Of a stretch of DNA of 64,000 bases, positions 1,877-8,263 are shown piece after piece (the stretch's first letter is position 1; each line of letters starts with the position of its first letter). Position numbers and translations under genes: made by a program. The notes under the pieces were generated by a model. That model saw nothing but the letters and a program-made list of their open reading frames with translations. It did not search any database and was not told the origin of the DNA. The DNA is taken from NCBI RefSeq assembly GCF_032854445.1, contig NC_088301.1, positions 23,408,226-23,472,225 of the forward strand, written 5' to 3'. Origin of the DNA: Liolophura sinensis. Taxonomy: Eukaryota; Mollusca; Polyplacophora; Chitonida; Chitonidae.

Positions 1877-1934
1877 ATTGGTCGCCCGCCAAAACCTGCC
1901 TAAAAATAGCAGAATCCTCCTCGGCAGTATAAAA
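1877..1934 (+). promoter_or_regulatory. Orphaned histone H2A core promoter (CCAAT and TATA)
   Basis: An inverted CCAAT box (ATTGG, 1877-1881) and a TATA box (TATAAAA, 1928-1934) lie 46 bases apart, the usual histone layout. The expected start, 25-31 bases after the TATA box, is about 1953-1962. The only gene in the right direction is H2A, but its ATG is now at 7886, because a LINE lies between. Removing the LINE and one copy of the 11-base duplication would leave about 83 bases from TATA to ATG, close to the 73 bases seen for H2B. I infer that this was the H2A promoter. Confidence 0.85.
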
Positions 1935-1949
1935 GCGCTGACTAAACTC

Positions 1950-1960
1950 GGAAGCCAGTT
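1950..1960. repeat. Target-site duplication, left copy
   Basis: GGAAGCCAGTT directly abuts the 5' end of the LINE and is repeated exactly at 7829-7839 after its poly(A) tail. Eleven identical bases are typical of target-primed reverse transcription. They define the element ends and suggest a recent insertion. Confidence 0.93.
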
Positions 1961-2089
1961 TACATAAACTCCAATATTGCACATGACTTTCTAAATTGGA
2001 AATTCACCCCAAAAGAAATAATTGAATGGGGAATGACCCAAAATTTACTCAGAAGGCATCTACTCCAACCAAAATATCAGAACGACTAA
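1961..2089 (+). pseudogene. LINE ORF1 C-terminal remnant
   Basis: From the first base of the element a frame is open for 42 codons and stops at TAA 2087-2089. It contains FLNWKFTPKEIIEWGMTQNL and ends in QPKYQND. It has no start codon and begins exactly at the truncation point, so it reads as the tail of a gag-like ORF1. I see no zinc knuckle in what remains. The assignment rests on position and the open frame, not on recognised similarity. Confidence 0.5.
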
Positions 2090-2121
2090 ATACGTCAATA
2101 TAATTACAGCCCCAACAATGA

Positions 2122-5100
2122 TCAACCGTATGGCTCCAAATTTCGATCAATAAATTCAATCAAAATCACATCAAAATCCTACAATGGAATGCCCGCGGCA
2201 TTCAAACAAACGGAGACAACCTTAAAGTACTTACCTCTGAAACTAACCCCGAGGTTATTTGTATTCAGGAAACCTTCCTCAAACCAGGAAACAACCCCAA
2301 CAACAAATTCAATATCCCCGGCTATAAAGCATACCGATGTGATAGGTTGCAAGACCGTCTGGGTGGAAATCTTATCCTTGTCAAGGAAAACATCATACAC
2401 CTGTATATGGGCTCGAATAACGTAAATGACTTACTTGAATGGCAAGCTATTCAAATTTACCACGAAAATAAACCAATCCACATTATAAACATATACTCTC
2501 CCGGAAGTATGAGGAAAATATCCAAAACAGAACTGGACAATATTATTTCCATGTTCAGCCCAAGTGCTATTATCTGCGGCGATTTCAATAGCCATAACCC
2601 TTTATGGGATGCAAAGTGTAAACACAGTGACGATCGTGGCAACACAGTACAAGCATGGTTAGAAGAACACAACCTAGTCTTCCTAAACGACGGTGAGGGA
2701 ACAAGAATAGACTTCGTCACAGGCAACACTTCAGCAATAGATCTCACTATTACCACACCCGATCTCGCACCTAAATCAAGCTGGAATGTTATACCAGATA
2801 CACTCGGGAGTGACCATTTCGCTATCATGACAGAACTTGGTATGTCACCTCAATCTGAAGTAAATCTCAACAACCCCAAATTTCTGTTCCACAAAGCAAA
2901 CTGGGAAAATTTTAAGAAAGATTGCCAAAATATATTCATTGATGATGACTGCCTCTCCGATATAGACCTATTCAACCAAAAACTTACTGATAATATACTC
3001 AGGATAGCAGAACAACACATCCCTATTTCCTCCCAGCATAAAAGGGCTGCAAATCCTGTTCCCTGGTGGAACAGTGAATGTGCTGCAAATATAAGAAACA
3101 AAAAAGAGCACTGCGTAAATTCAAAAGAACCAGATTACATACAGACCACGAAAAATACAAAAACCTAAAAATTGAAGCCGAAAAATCAGTCTCCCGTGCC
3201 AAAGCCAAATACTGGGAGAACTACTGTGGAACACTTGATACAAAAACAAATTCAAAGCAGGTATGGAACAAACTCAAACATATACAAGGCAAAACCATCA
3301 ATCCAATCCCAACTTTGGATCACAAACACAAAATCAATGAGGAAAAAGCAGAATGCCTCGCAAAAACCTTCGCAGAAAATAGCAGCGATCGAAACCTCAA
3401 TCCAACGTTCAAAATAATCAAAGATAACACATTTCTACAACTAGAGCCCGACGATCACGTTGAACATGACCTTAACAAAGATTTCTCCCTACAGGAATAT
3501 CACAAAGCCATTCACTATAAAAAAGAAACCTCACCAGGCGAAGACAAATTAGGCTACAAAATCCTGAAACACTTACCGCTAAAAAACACAAAATATAATA
3601 CTAAAACTCATAAATACAAGTTGGAGGAAAAAACAGCTGCCACAAAGTTGGAAATCGTCCATTGTCATTCCCATCCAAAAGACTGGAAAAAACCCATCAG
3701 ATAGTTCCTCCTACCGCCCAATATCACTCACGTCATGCCTATGTAAACTAATGGAAACTATGGTCAAAAACAGACTAGAATTTCATCTTGCTAAAAATAA
3801 AGTACTAAATGAAACACAAAGTGGATTTAGAAAAGGACGAAGTACATACGACCATCTAACAAAATTACAACATCAAATCCGAAAGGGGATAAGTAGGCGC
3901 GAATTCACTCTGGCTGTTTTTCTAGATATTGAAAAAGCCTTCGACCTCGTTTGGCAGGATGGAGTTATACTCCAATTCGATCAACTTGGGATAAAAGGAA
4001 GAATCCAACATTGGATATATGATTTCCTAAGAAATCGGAACTTTAAAGTCAGACTTGGACAAACTTCATCTAAAAGGCACACTCAACAAAATGGTACACC
4101 TCAAGGGAGCGTACTAAGCCCGACGTTATTTAACATTCTGATAAACGGTTTAGCAAATACAATAGACAGTAACCATCCAAAAATAGAGCAGTCACTATTT
4201 GCTGACGATGCGGCAATATGGAAAACAGGCAAATCTATTAAGAAAATAAAAGATGCTATACAGAAAACATTAAACACCATCTCGAACTGGGCCGACCACT
4301 GGGGATTTAAATTCTCAGCCACTAAAACGACAGGTATTGTTTTTACAAACAGAAGAAAAGTGAATATTGAACTTTTCATAGGTAAAAAGAAAATTGAAAT
4401 CAAAGAAAAAGTGAAATACCTAGGTATGATTCTTGATAGTAGATTAACATGGAAAGACCATATTAATGACCTCACAATTAGATGCCAACGCGATCTCAAT
4501 CTTATGAGATGCATTTCAGGCACTAAATGGGGAGCCAACAAAACCACACTCATAAAAATGTACCAGTGTCTAATTCGCTCCAAAATAGACTATGGTGCAA
4601 TAGTCTATCAATCCGCGTGCAAAACTCTACTACAGCGAATTGATAGTATTCAATATTCTGCCTTAAAAGTAGCAACAGGAGCCTTCAAAGGCACTTCGCT
4701 TTGCAGTCTCCAAGTAGAAACACTTGAAAAACCCCTTCACCTTAGAAGAGAACAACTAACCCTCAAATATGCAGGAAAAATAAGCGCTTACGGTAATACA
4801 CATCCATGTTACAATTTAATCCTCCCATATTCTGAATATGAATATCTGGAAAAAAAATGGACAAAACACTCAGCTCCAATAGGATATGAAATCAACAGAC
4901 TACTTTGCAAATATGACATTGCCTTGCCAAAGCAACAAGAAAATGTATATCAACAACCCCCGTGGCTATTGCAAACTCCCCAAATAGACATTGCACTCCA
5001 CGACCAAATTTCAAAACTGGAAAACCCAGTATATATCAAAGCTCAAGCCTTAGAACACTTCCACGAACACTACAACGGTCATCTAAAAATATATACTGAC

Positions 5101-5955
5101 GGATCTAAAAATGTGCAGGGTCACACTGGATCATCATTTGCAATACCAGATCTAAACATAGTTAAAAACTATAAACTACCCAACCACCTCTCCGTCTATA
5201 CTAGTGAATTAGTTGCAATTACAATGGCACTACAATGGATTCTTGAGAACAAACCAAACCGAGTAGCCATACTAAGCGACTCCCTCAGCGGAATAATTTC
5301 CATCCAAAACTCCAAATCTGAGAGTAGACCAGACCTCCTACAAGAAATAATCTCGCTAACTGACAAAATACAGAAACAAAAAACCGACCTGACTCTAGCA
5401 TGGGTTCCAGCACACGTTAATATTCGAGGAAATGAAATTGCAGATCAGGCAGCAAAATCGAGCCTACGAAAATATGAACAAGATATAGACGTCCCCCTGA
5501 GCCAAAATGAAATATATACATTGATCAATACCCAAATTAACAATCAGTGGAAAGAGGAATGGGATAAAGAATCCCGCGGACGGTGGCACTATAAAATATT
5601 AAACGGAACGATTACAAAATTAAATTCGTTCCAATTATTGAATAACCAAGATGACAAAAACATATCACGCCTGAGACTAGGGAAAACAGGGCTCAAAGCA
5701 CATCTAGCAACTATAATCCAAAATTCTTCACCAACTTGCCCAGCCTGTCAAGAGCATGATGAAACCATAGAGCACTATTTGCTACAATGTATTAAACACA
5801 GTAAAGAACGAAGGCGATTGGCAGAATGCCTGCAAATCTACAAATGTGAACTTGACCTTCAGACTATCCTTAACCCCAAACCACACCTGAGAGCACAAAT
5901 ATTCTCCTTACTAAAAGAATACATCAAATCGACGAGTTACGAAAGCCGAATCTGA
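2122..5955 (+). pseudogene. LINE ORF2: endonuclease, reverse transcriptase, RNase H, zinc knuckle
   Basis: It encodes the enzyme that nicks target DNA and copies the element RNA into it. The APE-type endonuclease begins with ILQWNARGIQ (2176) and PEVICIQETFLKP, and continues with GDFNSHNPLW (from 2578) and SDHF (near 2809). RT motifs follow: SYRPISL, FLDIEKAFD (catalytic Asp near 3925), NGTPQGSVLSP and FADD (4198-4209). RNase H has IYTDGS, SEL, LSDS and WVPAHV...NEIAD, so its D-E-D-H-D set is complete. A CX2CX8HX4C knuckle (CPAC...H...C) lies near the C-terminus. The frame shifts twice, by -1 in an A6 run near 3100-3105 and by +1 in an A6 run near 3581-3586; the net frame is restored and the stretch between keeps its ORF2 character. 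No ATG is seen before the endonuclease; the frame opens at 2122, after the ORF1 stop. As read, the enzyme cannot be made whole. Confidence 0.93.
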
Positions 5956-5974
5956 TAAAACACAATTGACCAAC

Positions 5975-6190
5975 AACGGCGATACCTTGATTCTGAGGGC
6001 CGTTTCTGCTCTAGTCAACAATACGTCACCTTCTCTGATTAAAAACGGTGCATTCTCCGTAATTACCAAACACATATACTAACAACGGCGATACCTTGAT
6101 TTTGAGGGCCGTTTATTCCACAGATACATAATTCCTCCCTACAACTTTATCCCCAACTATATCGGCGATACCTTGATCTTGAGGGCCGAT
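5975..6190 (+). repeat. Three spaced copies of a 30-nt hairpin after ORF2
   Basis: Copies lie at 5975-6004, 6084-6113 and 6161-6190. Each has a 6-bp outer stem, the invariant GATACCTTGAT, and AGGG before the closing strand; CCT and AGG can form an inner helix. Copies 1 and 2 close AACGGC with GCCGTT, whereas copy 3 closes ATCGGC with GCCGAT. The second base pair has therefore swapped A-T for T-A, a covariation that argues for a selected structure. They begin 20 bases after the ORF2 stop. A separate GAGGG/CCCTC hairpin with a 4-nt loop lies at 6378-6391. The rest of 6191-6563 is AT-rich with nothing recognised. Confidence 0.8.
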
Positions 6191-6563
6191 AAAACGTCCA
6201 TGAAACCAATCTGCAAAAACATAGCACACGAAAACAATGTAACCACAAAAGTTGATAACTGTAGTAATTAATAATATTTCTCCATTAACTAATCTGCCCT
6301 CTTACTTGTTGTTATTTATCTATTCTTATTAGTTGATATTTATTATCTATTTATTTACAAATGTGTATATATCATACGAGGGCAGACCCTCTATCAATTT
6401 CTGATTGGTAGGTATACCACTAATTTGCTCCTAAATATCTGTTTTATCAAATATCTTCTTGCTTAAGATATACATTATCTCATAAACAAAACACCTTCGC
6501 AAATCAAAAATACAACTATCTTGTATATTTGTTTTCTCTATTTGTTTTCACAGGGAAAAAAGG

Positions 6564-7130
6564 ATGAAAATCTTTATTATCGGCAGCAGTTACGTTCATA
6601 GACTGGAGAATAGTATCCTTCGAAATTCGATCCCAAACTCTAGAATCGACTTTGGAACAGGCCAAGACATTCGGTTTTTTGGCATTGGGGGAGCTAGAGT
6701 TGGGACACTTAGATGCTCTGGAAGATTGGAAAGTCTCCTTCAGGAGACAAAACCTGACCTAGTTATCCTTCACATTGGGGGAAACGATGCGGACTCTCAC
6801 AAATCAGCAGCAGCAATTTGCGCTGATATTTTAGACTATGTTGGTGCACTTAAAACGAAATTCCAAATTCCAAGGATCTACATCAGCCAGCTTCTTTACC
6901 GTCAGGTAACTCGGCGAATTTCGGTCCACATTTATAATACAAAAATCCATGAAATTAACAAGAAGCTGACAAACAACCAATTGGCCACCTTCTGGAGACA
7001 CCGGGGACTGATCCGACCACAAAAACAAATTCTAACCAAAGACGGAGTGCACCTAAACACTCTAGGCCAGGAACTGTTCTACCGGTCTATGAAACGTGCT
7101 GTCTGCGCCGCCATGGGAGGCAGAAAATAA
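6564..7130 (+). CDS. SGNH/GDSL hydrolase-like protein, third ORF of the LINE
   Basis: An intact 188-residue frame starting MKIFIIGSSYVHRL, with the marks of the SGNH-hydrolase fold. Block I is IIGSSY with Ser9 as probable nucleophile (the usual GDS Asp is Ser here). Block II is FGIGGARV (Gly42/43), block III is LHIGGNDA with Asn74, and block V is DGVHLN with Asp160 and His163. Ser, Gly, Asn and the Asp-His pair are all present. The length suits a bare catalytic domain, with no signal peptide or membrane segment. It lies 608 bases after ORF2, inside the same target duplications, with A-rich codons like ORF2. SGNH-type domains are known in ORF1 of some CR1 LINEs and in a downstream ORF of some Ngaro-type tyrosine-recombinase elements. 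Here it is a separate ORF after ORF2. Substrate and role are unknown. How it would be translated from a downstream position is also unclear. Confidence 0.85.
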   Translation: MKIFIIGSSYVHRLENSILRNSIPNSRIDFGTGQDIRFFGIGGARVGTLRCSGRLESLLQETKPDLVILHIGGNDADSHKSAAAICADILDYVGALKTKFQIPRIYISQLLYRQVTRRISVHIYNTKIHEINKKLTNNQLATFWRHRGLIRPQKQILTKDGVHLNTLGQELFYRSMKRAVCAAMGGRK

Positions 7131-7384
7131 AAATTGGAAATAGAGAAGGAAATCAATTAAAGAAGAAGACAGGGAAAACAATAAGAAGACCCATGGAACC
7201 AAAGAAACTTAACAACCAGGAAACGAAGACCAGAAACATGAAAGACATCATGACAATAGGACTATCTCTTGCTTCAACTAAGTGGATGAGGCCTGACATC
7301 CTTGCTCCTCATTTATACTTGTCGCACCTGTTACAGGCACAGGTTTCCAGTACGCTGGTTTTTCCTGGACGGCGTCCGGTATAA

Positions 7385-7413
7385 GTGGCGGGAGCTCCTT
7401 AACTCCACGCCAC
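7385..7413 (+). other. Hairpin in LINE 3' UTR
   Basis: GTGGCGGGAG can pair with CTCCACGCCAC across a short loop with one bulged A. It lies in the 670-base 3' UTR after the SGNH ORF. A role as an RT-recognition or export structure is inference. The rest of 7131-7750 shows no other coding signal. Confidence 0.55.
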
Positions 7414-7752
7414 AGAGGAGGAAGCAAGAGAACAAAACTGTTAACCAATAAATTGTTTTCTCTCTGTGTAAATTTCTGTATAGGCAACTCATTGTAATCT
7501 TTTAATGCAGATCTATGTATTTCTAATGTAAAGATAACGTTAATCCCTGTAAATAGCTTACTATTTATCCCCTTTCTGTTAAATGACCATGGCAGCATTT
7601 GAACCTATAGAATAAGCTGTAACATGCTACCACAAAGAGGTTAATCCCACTAATTGACTCATGTACATATGTAAATAGTATACAAACGCACTGCTGTTAT
7701 GTAATCAAAATATTCATGTGTTAAAAAAAAATAAATAAAACACTGATTTGAT

Positions 7753-7782
7753 GGGCCACGATATCCGCCAGGAAAGTGGCCC
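7753..7782 (+). other. Terminal 3' hairpin of the LINE
   Basis: GGGCCAC (7753-7759) and GTGGCCC (7776-7782) form a perfect 7-bp stem around a 16-nt loop, 18 bases before the poly(A). Many LINEs carry a 3' stem-loop that their RT recognises to begin target-primed synthesis. Position and perfection suggest the same role here. Confidence 0.7.
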
Positions 7783-7800
7783 TAAAACCAGTAAATAAAC

Positions 7801-7828
7801 AAAAAAAAAAAAAAAAAAAAAAAAAAAA
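7801..7828 (+). repeat. LINE poly(A) tail
   Basis: Twenty-eight uninterrupted A's lie directly before the right target-site duplication. This fixes the 3' end of the insertion and indicates an RNA intermediate. A long pure tail suggests little time for decay. Confidence 0.95.
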
Positions 7829-7839
7829 GGAAGCCAGTT
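7829..7839. repeat. Target-site duplication, right copy
   Basis: GGAAGCCAGTT is identical to 1950-1960. It is followed by the remaining 46 bases of the original H2A leader up to the ATG at 7886. Confidence 0.93.
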
Positions 7840-7885: not shown

Positions 7886-8263
7886 ATGTCTGGACGTGGT
7901 AAAGGCGGTAAAGTCAAGGGAAAGAGCAAGACTCGCTCATCCCGCGCTGGACTCCAGTTCCCCGTCGGACGTATCCACCGTCTGTTGAGAAAGGGCAACT
8001 ACGCCGAGCGAGTGGGAGCCGGAGCTCCTGTCTATCTGGCTGCCGTGCTCGAATACCTGGCTGCCGAAGTTCTCGAGTTGGCAGGAAACGCCGCCCGTGA
8101 CAACAAGAAATCCAGAATTATTCCTCGACATCTTCAGCTGGCCGTCCGAAACGATGAGGAATTGAACAGGCTCCTGTCCGGCGTCACCATCGCCCAGGGA
8201 GGTGTCTTGCCCAACATCCAGGCTGTCCTCCTGCCCAAGAAGACCCAGAAGGCCGGCAAATAA
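7886..8263 (+). CDS. H2A: Histone H2A, replication-dependent
   Basis: A core histone of 125 residues that dimerises with H2B. It begins [20 protein letters not shown] and continues [59 protein letters not shown] and [18 protein letters not shown] (acidic-patch residues), ending [11 protein letters not shown] with the conserved C-terminal lysines. It has no SQ motif or other sign of H2A.X, and no H2A.Z signature. There is no intron, and its own stem-loop follows. The coding sequence is intact, but its TATA and CCAAT boxes lie 5.9 kb upstream beyond the LINE. Only about 57 bases of leader, counting the duplicated 11, remain attached. It may be silent, weakly transcribed, or served by a cryptic promoter in the LINE 3' end. 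Array relatives elsewhere could cover its function. Confidence 0.98.

Follow-up and report, generated by a model that had tools for sequence, protein, structure and literature searches.

Does the chiton Liolophura sinensis contain a LINE that encodes an SGNH hydrolase as a separate third protein, and if so, where did the additional reading frame come from and what has kept it open? The question is raised by one element in the window, i.e., the whole stretch of 64,000 nucleotides analysed here. An earlier note, made from the letters alone, had claimed for this element a 188-residue frame with all SGNH blocks, placed between ORF2 and the poly(A) within one pair of exact target duplications, and an ORF2 that is shifted. 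The analysis bears out these points: ORF3 lies between ORF2, whose frame ends at 5955, and the poly(A), inside a single exact 11-bp duplication pair, and the ORF2 frame of this copy breaks between the endonuclease and the reverse transcriptase (RT). The 5′ end of the copy falls within the end of ORF1, and the inserted LINE separates the TATA box of a histone H2A gene from the H2A ATG. The features are the following, in window coordinates.

1928–1934, plus strand: TATAAAA, the H2A TATA box, assigned from sequence
1950–1960, plus strand: target duplication, left copy, 11 bp, exact, GGAAGCCAGTT
1961–7828, plus strand: LINE copy, 5′-truncated, with poly(A) end
1961–2089, plus strand: ORF1 remnant (its end)
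2122–3165, plus strand: endonuclease region of ORF2 (Exo_endo_phos_2); the frame breaks close to the end of this region
3583–5955, plus strand: ORF2 reverse transcriptase and RNase H
5974–6004, plus strand: hairpin 1, AACGGC...GCCGTT
6083–6113, plus strand: hairpin 2
6160–6191, plus strand: hairpin 3, outer stem altered on both sides, ATCGGC...GCCGAT
6525–6553, plus strand: pyrimidine tract and 3′-splice-site-like TTTTCACAG/G, 10 nt 5′ of the ORF3 ATG
6564–7130, plus strand: ORF3, SGNH hydrolase, 188 aa (188 codons)
7753–7782, plus strand: 3′-terminal hairpin GGGCCAC...GTGGCCC (shuffle z −5.6 for 7741–7800)
7801–7828, plus strand: poly(A) tail
7829–7839, plus strand: target duplication, right copy, 11 bp, exact, GGAAGCCAGTT
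7886–8263, plus strand: histone H2A gene

By its ORF2 domains, 5′ truncation, A-rich tail and target duplications, the element fits an APE-type LINE of the RNase-H-bearing I group, RNase H being given for I-group clades in the available text of PMC4640811 (this and the other papers cited by PMC number are drawn on in part). Pfam matches ORF2 to Exo_endo_phos_2 (2e-23), RVT_1 (3e-33) and RNase_H (2e-14). The protein collection also contains an ORF2 frame of 1182 aa, with an identity of 100% (rounded) to this one across 734 compared residues. Pfam scanning of four frames detected endonuclease, RT, RNase H and GDSL domains and no tyrosine recombinase. At gathering thresholds, Rfam returns for the window the histone stem-loop alone, and the LINE hairpins match no family. 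The window also holds a SINE-like repeat, at 61–330 and in seven further places on both strands; its head is presumably tRNA-like, and ARAGORN finds no tRNA in it.

The assignment of ORF3 draws on several lines of evidence that agree with each other. Ser9, Gly42/43, Asn74, Asp160 and His163 are present at the positions given in the earlier note, Pfam matches the frame to Lipase_GDSL_2 (E 9e-12), and the AlphaFold2 model has a mean pLDDT of 95.5 and a pTM of 0.90. In a Foldseek search with this model, the top PDB matches are SGNH acetylesterases (sialate, xylan) and PAF acetylhydrolases. The four sequence blocks, together with the predicted fold, place ORF3 in the SGNH/GDSL hydrolase superfamily. 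The frame is not a product of chance, since in 1000 shuffles of 5956–7830 that preserved dinucleotides, the longest ATG frame never exceeded 143 codons (mean 59), as against 188. ORF3 matches 4c1b, the ORF1 esterase of solved structure, weakly (E 0.003). Two residues, H191 and S228, are reported as conserved only in transposon esterases in the accessible part of PMC3905857, and His70 and Ser108 of ORF3 align with them; because the same residues are aligned at these positions in the two host frames described below, they do not distinguish element from host.

If the third frame belongs to the LINE, it should be met at the same place in other copies. This had been proposed in the earlier note as a check, and it was carried out in the Liolophura genome. 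When the 3′ end of ORF2 was used as the query, 98 candidates came up and 40 were scored; 38 of the 40 have ORF3 sequence in the same place. Of these, 20 are also matched by the ORF3 search, and among the other 20 scored copies, 18 have ORF3 in place, several of them decayed or partly deleted. The DNA search with ORF3 itself gave 134 candidates; the 40 that were scored, among them the window copy, align over all or nearly all of the ORF at 97–100%. At all 20 of the ORF3-bearing 10-kb loci compared besides the window, the LINE is colinear with the window copy around ORF3, with differing start points. Two of these copies (L026 and L027) are full-length, about 7.2 kb, and carry a 385-codon ORF1 frame that has no Pfam match and contains what we take to be three CCHC-like knuckles. 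In two other copies (L041 and L048), the LINE homology stops before ORF3, at positions corresponding to window 6079 and 6042, respectively.

The copies are not of one age. One is identical to the window copy over ORF3 and several are 99.8% identical, and ORF3-bearing copies reach down to about 86% DNA identity, so ORF3 has outlived several subfamilies. The earlier suggestion that the open frame hints at selection or recency is upheld, in that selection is indicated (see below) and recency applies to the window copy; the arrangement itself is older, since copies at 86–90% have ORF3. Such a frame could also have come with another mobile element inserted inside the LINE, since SGNH ORFs are known from Ngaro, Penelope-like and LTR elements in the portions of the literature available (PMC9210276, PMC3905857, PMC5408684). 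The probability of this is practically nil, and an independent SGNH transposon was ruled out as a candidate: the LINE runs colinear across ORF3 in the window and at the 20 loci compared, and a target duplication of ORF3's own, the case named in the earlier note as contrary to its reading, is seen in none of them.

For related LINEs with 37–39% RT identity, an SGNH match within 5 kb downstream is present in none of the 20 copies listed, a count that holds among the matches listed (best 61 of 3969 and 144 of 179 candidates) and that diverged cases could escape. Close to one such copy (C6:20180854), the ORF3 of a neighbouring window-family copy lies upstream. Three loci in GTDB genomes are related, two of them mollusc-symbiont records with distant LINEs (L001 and L002), and an SGNH profile has no match on these three; viral contigs gave no relatives. 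Among the matches listed, four LINE 5′ leaders (C4:7272508, C7:42936612, C3:17883505 and C3:18232063) are without a nearby ORF3 match and are possibly 3′-deleted or half-LINE copies.

The closest relatives of ORF3 that were found are host frames, namely a gene on C13 (57% identical) and a frame on C11 (37%). The former is RefSeq LOC135480280 (protein P0003), with two matched exons and an intron between them, and P0003 matches the genome at 99% over residues 44–267. The latter is an open 214-codon frame with an acceptor-like site before the SGNH part. In both cases the SGNH-coding stretch follows an AG acceptor, begins with CTG and has about 22 codons before the first strand, the exon border being given by P0003 for C13 and inferred for C11. 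Just before the SGNH domain of LOC135480280 (L052, C13:29521600–29523600) stands an NPGP, which we assume to be 2A-like. Because the closest relatives are host frames with the SGNH part behind an acceptor, one of them in a RefSeq gene with an intron, ORF3 is likely a captured host exon, and capture of a host terminal exon would be the shortest reading. Between ORF3 and the C13 gene, pN is 0.27 and pS 0.89. Homology between the LINE spacer and the C13 intron does not rise above shuffles (109 of 300 reach the same score), and capture of intron sequence is for this reason unproven.

Gene flow in the opposite direction is possible, such that the C13 and C11 frames would be domesticated ORF3s of this LINE lineage; we regard this as unlikely. 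It would agree with the fact that the C13 protein has no close relative but ORF3 in the protein collection, with the catalytic Asp that is retained in ORF3 and replaced by Glu in the C13 protein, and with the transposon-esterase residues that are present in ORF3 and aligned in both host frames. However, in the tree ORF3 groups with C13 (support 88/74) and C11 falls outside this pair (98/96), so domestication needs extra events, and it has to contend with the intron in C13 and the acceptor-like site before the SGNH part in C11. Furthermore, within 2.0 and 2.2 kb around the C13 and C11 frames, the SGNH part alone matches the LINE, one 25-residue piece (L053) apart.

As for the capture of a host exon, which is the reading we prefer, ORF3 would most likely have been gained as an SGNH terminal exon together with its splice acceptor, by 3′ transduction or by a template jump. 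The spacer upstream of ORF3 contains an acceptor-like TTTGTTTTCTCTATTTGTTTTCACAG/G; under a simple hand-made score, only two of the 7166 AG sites on the two strands do better. In 11 old copies the tract and acceptor show 4.3% mismatch vs 8.4% for the rest of the spacer. The 5′ leaders of L026 and L027 have no strong splice donor. Of 65 candidate 5′-leader matches, 40 were scored; each of these is more than 2 kb away from any ORF3 match, so no spliced retrocopy is evident among them. The sequence is compatible with an ORF3 protein made either from a spliced RNA or by re-initiation. Strong GT sites occur inside ORF2, at window positions 2693 and 3261. The three near-identical spacer hairpins (GGCGATACCTTGATNNTGAGGGCC) have a mismatch of 4.7% in old copies; one of them is deleted in some copies, and they vaguely resemble the histone mRNA stem-loop, with no Rfam match. 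A poly(A)-like run just 5′ of the ORF3 ATG was considered as an old LINE 3′ end and rejected, being long in some young copies only; several older copies read GGAACAAAAAACAAGG before the ORF3 ATG.

What has kept the frame open was addressed in a 3′ alignment of 41 rows, in which 39 have ORF3, uninterrupted in 19 and interrupted in 20. The approach works without ancestral sequences and compares variants common to at least two copies, which mostly arose in the active lineage, with private variants, which mostly arose after insertion. Thirty-four rows entered the test, after exclusion of L041 and L048 (no ORF3), L012 (ORF3 identical to the window) and the local duplicates L039, L040, L046 and L049. 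Shared variants in ORF3 comprise 25 replacement (N, 2 of them stops) and 18 silent (S) changes, and private variants 146 N (11 stops) and 37 S (Fisher P 0.0037). Retaining the local duplicates, which brings the rows to 38, gives a P of 0.0005. The contrast is absent in frames +1 and +2 of ORF3 (P 0.70 and 0.98), and a 303-bp segment at the end of ORF2, where there is little power, gives 13:6 shared vs 74:23 private (P 0.32). Relative to a neutral N:S expectation of 2.72, taken from spacer and 3′UTR changes, shared variants have an N/S of 0.51 (P 0.024). Private variants show an N excess, at 1.45 of neutral, which is perhaps alignment noise at frameshifts, and the shared/private contrast is on that account somewhat inflated. 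The five replacement variants in catalytic codons are each private to a single copy. These comparisons indicate that ORF3 has been maintained by selection.

The pattern bears on whether ORF3 could be a functionless passenger, i.e., a host SGNH exon transduced once at the 3′ end of one source element and copied ever since. Transduced sequence is indeed copied for as long as its source stays active, the closest relatives found are host frames, and the 20 alignment rows with an interrupted ORF3 would suit such a history. Nevertheless we hold it quite improbable, given that ORF3 copies spanning about 86% to 100% identity have survived several subfamilies, that the depletion of replacements among shared variants is seen in the true frame only, and that catalytic-codon replacements are confined to single copies. 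The observation on ORF3 with which this work began is confirmed, and is stronger than first stated.

A second property of the family concerns where it inserts. The target duplication of the window copy begins 22 nt 3′ of the first T of the H2A TATA box (1928–1934), and the corresponding distance was examined at other insertion sites. Exact target duplications of at least 8 nt were required, and 18 of the 30 sites tried had one and 12 did not; C1:235 was dropped because it has one base upstream only, which gives 17 evaluable sites. L016 (masked 5′ flank) was left untried, and L054, L057, L059, L061, L062, L068, L070 and L071 were left out for want of a usable 3′ flank. At L020 the flanks examined are those of a minus-strand LINE copy, the plus-strand copy starting at site B (see below). 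At 10 of the 17 sites, six or more of the seven TATAWAW positions are matched 20–22 nt upstream of the duplication, and at 6 of these the match is a full 7/7, compared with a background in a wider window of 19–26 nt, over 46,905 positions, of 8.4% (at least 6/7) and 0.94% (7/7). In 5000 shuffles, 0.49 sites fit on average and 4 at most. When the 17 sites are collapsed into 13 target families (our own grouping), each represented by its worst member, a TATA match of 6/7 or better is retained in 7 (P 3e-5), and a perfect 7/7 in 4 (P 5e-6); there is thus no single target sequence. The test is partly post hoc, as the rule was suggested by the first loci.

By the automatic rule, seven sites do not fit, namely L015, L031, C13:73, C10:237, L017, C26 and L018. 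The automatic duplication is misplaced in L017 and C26, both at site B. L018 fits by the position of a U4 gene though not by the TATA rule, in that its duplication ends on the very nucleotide (L018:9169) with which the Rfam U4 match begins; the locus is a U4 snRNA tandem array with 15 Rfam matches in 10 kb. Insertions about 20–22 nt behind TATA boxes (for L018, at the U4 first base) were noted in the window and in L013, L018, L021, L024, L025, L027, L029, L030, L056 and L063. The duplications at fitting sites are 9–14 nt long and would cover roughly −9 to +2, or slightly beyond, of the expected start site, which is itself predicted. At the fitting sites, insertion lies at a fixed distance from a core promoter, and it looks as if the LINE targets Pol II start sites, as predicted from sequence.

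Several targets are used repeatedly: three sites account for 12 of the 20 fetched loci (A, 4; B, 6; G, 2), and of these sites A and B are opposite strands of one repeat. Adjoining this repeat in L016 is a frame with the RNase H domain of reverse transcriptases, which we take to be Gypsy-like. Such a concentration is what would be expected if the TATA placement reflected survivorship or shared repeats, the copies in repeat promoters having merely been duplicated or tolerated, and the offset window was picked after the first sites had been viewed, with the rule unmet at 7 of 17 evaluable sites. We give this reading only a small probability. Copies at one site differ in their LINE start points (that of L016 being at a masked stretch) and are therefore separate insertions, and the family-collapsed test retains 7 and 4 of 13 families at the two thresholds. 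Among sites fetched after the rule had been formulated, two fit with 7/7 at 22 nt, namely C9:123, which is a new target, and C2:143, which is again site A; C13:73 and C10:237 do not fit, and C26, at site B, goes down as a miss through its misplaced duplication. Placement at start sites is the more surprising of the two results, and as presently seen it rests on 17 evaluable sites and predicted starts.

The placement seems to be older than ORF3, since a copy of a related LINE that lacks ORF3 and has a C-run end (L024:9140–9957, L080:550–600) ends at the same site-B nucleotides as the window family, a single case; the endonuclease of that LINE is 36–39% identical to that of the window family. 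In the full-length copies L054–L071, the 5′ leaders are mosaics that differ between copies; they contain repeats of CACTGAGCTTTACGTG-like units and stretches that look like the promoters in which the copies sit, and many are alike only from GAGCTTCCTACCAGGCAACC onward. Insertion under host promoters could be the cause of these mosaic, copy-specific leaders.

Comparison with known systems reveals partial counterparts for each property. In CR1/L2/RTEX LINEs, the SGNH esterase is an ORF1 domain upstream of pol in the text available of PMC3905857 and PMC4120745. The chiton element is like these (type IV ORF1; ZfL2-1) in being a LINE that encodes an SGNH hydrolase with equivalents of H191 and S228, and unlike them in that its ORF1 is another protein, the SGNH hydrolase has an ORF of its own downstream of ORF2, and the LINE is one with RNase H. 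Ngaro tyrosine-recombinase retrotransposons carry an extra SGNH ORF after the recombinase, on the 3′ side of the coding block, according to the part of PMC9210276 at hand. The downstream SGNH ORF is thus a shared trait, but the chiton element has an APE endonuclease, target duplications and poly(A), and no tyrosine recombinase was found by Pfam in the frames scanned. The two cases named in the earlier note, an esterase in ORF1 of CR1-type elements and a downstream ORF in Ngaro, are those described in these sources. In bdelloid rotifers, a GDSL ORF3 follows pol in Vesta LTR and Athena Penelope-like elements, and according to the authors, an ORF3 in an LTR element is typically expressed from a spliced message (PMC5408684, in part). 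The chiton element shares with them the GDSL/SGNH enzyme as ORF3, and differs from them in being a LINE.

With respect to placement, the APE LINE TRE5-A of Dictyostelium integrates upstream of tRNA genes and has an ORF1p that interacts with TBP, Brf1 and Bdp1, and TRE5-A and Ty3 target Pol III genes through TFIIIB (PMC5911963, accessible portion). In contrast, the chiton LINE sits at Pol II promoters of the TATA type, those of a histone gene and of repeats, and at a U4 snRNA gene. Insertion at fixed nucleotides of multicopy genes, in a sequence-specific manner, is described for the R1 and Tx1 clades and for Utopia (U2 snRNA) in the available text of PMC4640811, whereas the sequences hit by the chiton family are many and unrelated, and the majority have a TATA box 20–22 nt upstream. 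The P element and Mu are strongly enriched near transcription start sites, with a peak shift under 50 bp, and the portion of PMC7337890 available states no fixed TATA distance for these DNA transposons, unlike that seen for the chiton LINE. Within the open-access literature (subscription papers and Repbase notes being outside this scope), we found no LINE with a separate SGNH ORF3, which accords with the earlier note's remark that the arrangement was unfamiliar in an RNase-H LINE, and none that targets Pol II start sites.

Based on these results, we consider it quite probable that the family is a three-ORF chiton LINE whose ORF3 derives from a host SGNH terminal exon, is under selection and encodes a probable esterase, and which tends to insert at TATA-type Pol II starts. 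Its three proteins would be a zinc-knuckle-like ORF1 protein, an ORF2 protein with APE endonuclease, RT and RNase H, and a separate SGNH esterase, the last retained under selection over many rounds of copying after its capture. ORF3p would probably be a working esterase that aids the element, and by analogy may have the role proposed for the SGNH domain of CR1/L2/RTEX ORF1p, i.e., lipid or membrane contact of the RNP; here it would have become a protein in its own right, translated either from a subgenomic RNA produced by splicing or by re-initiation. We also lean toward a more specific mechanism, in which the LINE would find TATA-type Pol II promoters via the initiation machinery and carry out target-primed reverse transcription where the DNA opens, on a chassis apparently shared with the related LINE (one case), and in which one lineage added the captured and selected host esterase as ORF3. 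Insertion tends toward predicted TATA-type Pol II start sites, and because a new copy would be placed where the host promoter would transcribe it, each full-length copy would come to lie under a host promoter.

For the biology of such elements, a three-protein LINE makes the role of the SGNH esterase in retroelements testable apart from an RNA-binding ORF1. In addition, the family appears to be a LINE that reads the position of a Pol II promoter rather than one sequence. If confirmed, this would constitute a natural system for start-site-directed target-primed reverse transcription, and a route by which a LINE may gain transcription without a promoter of its own.
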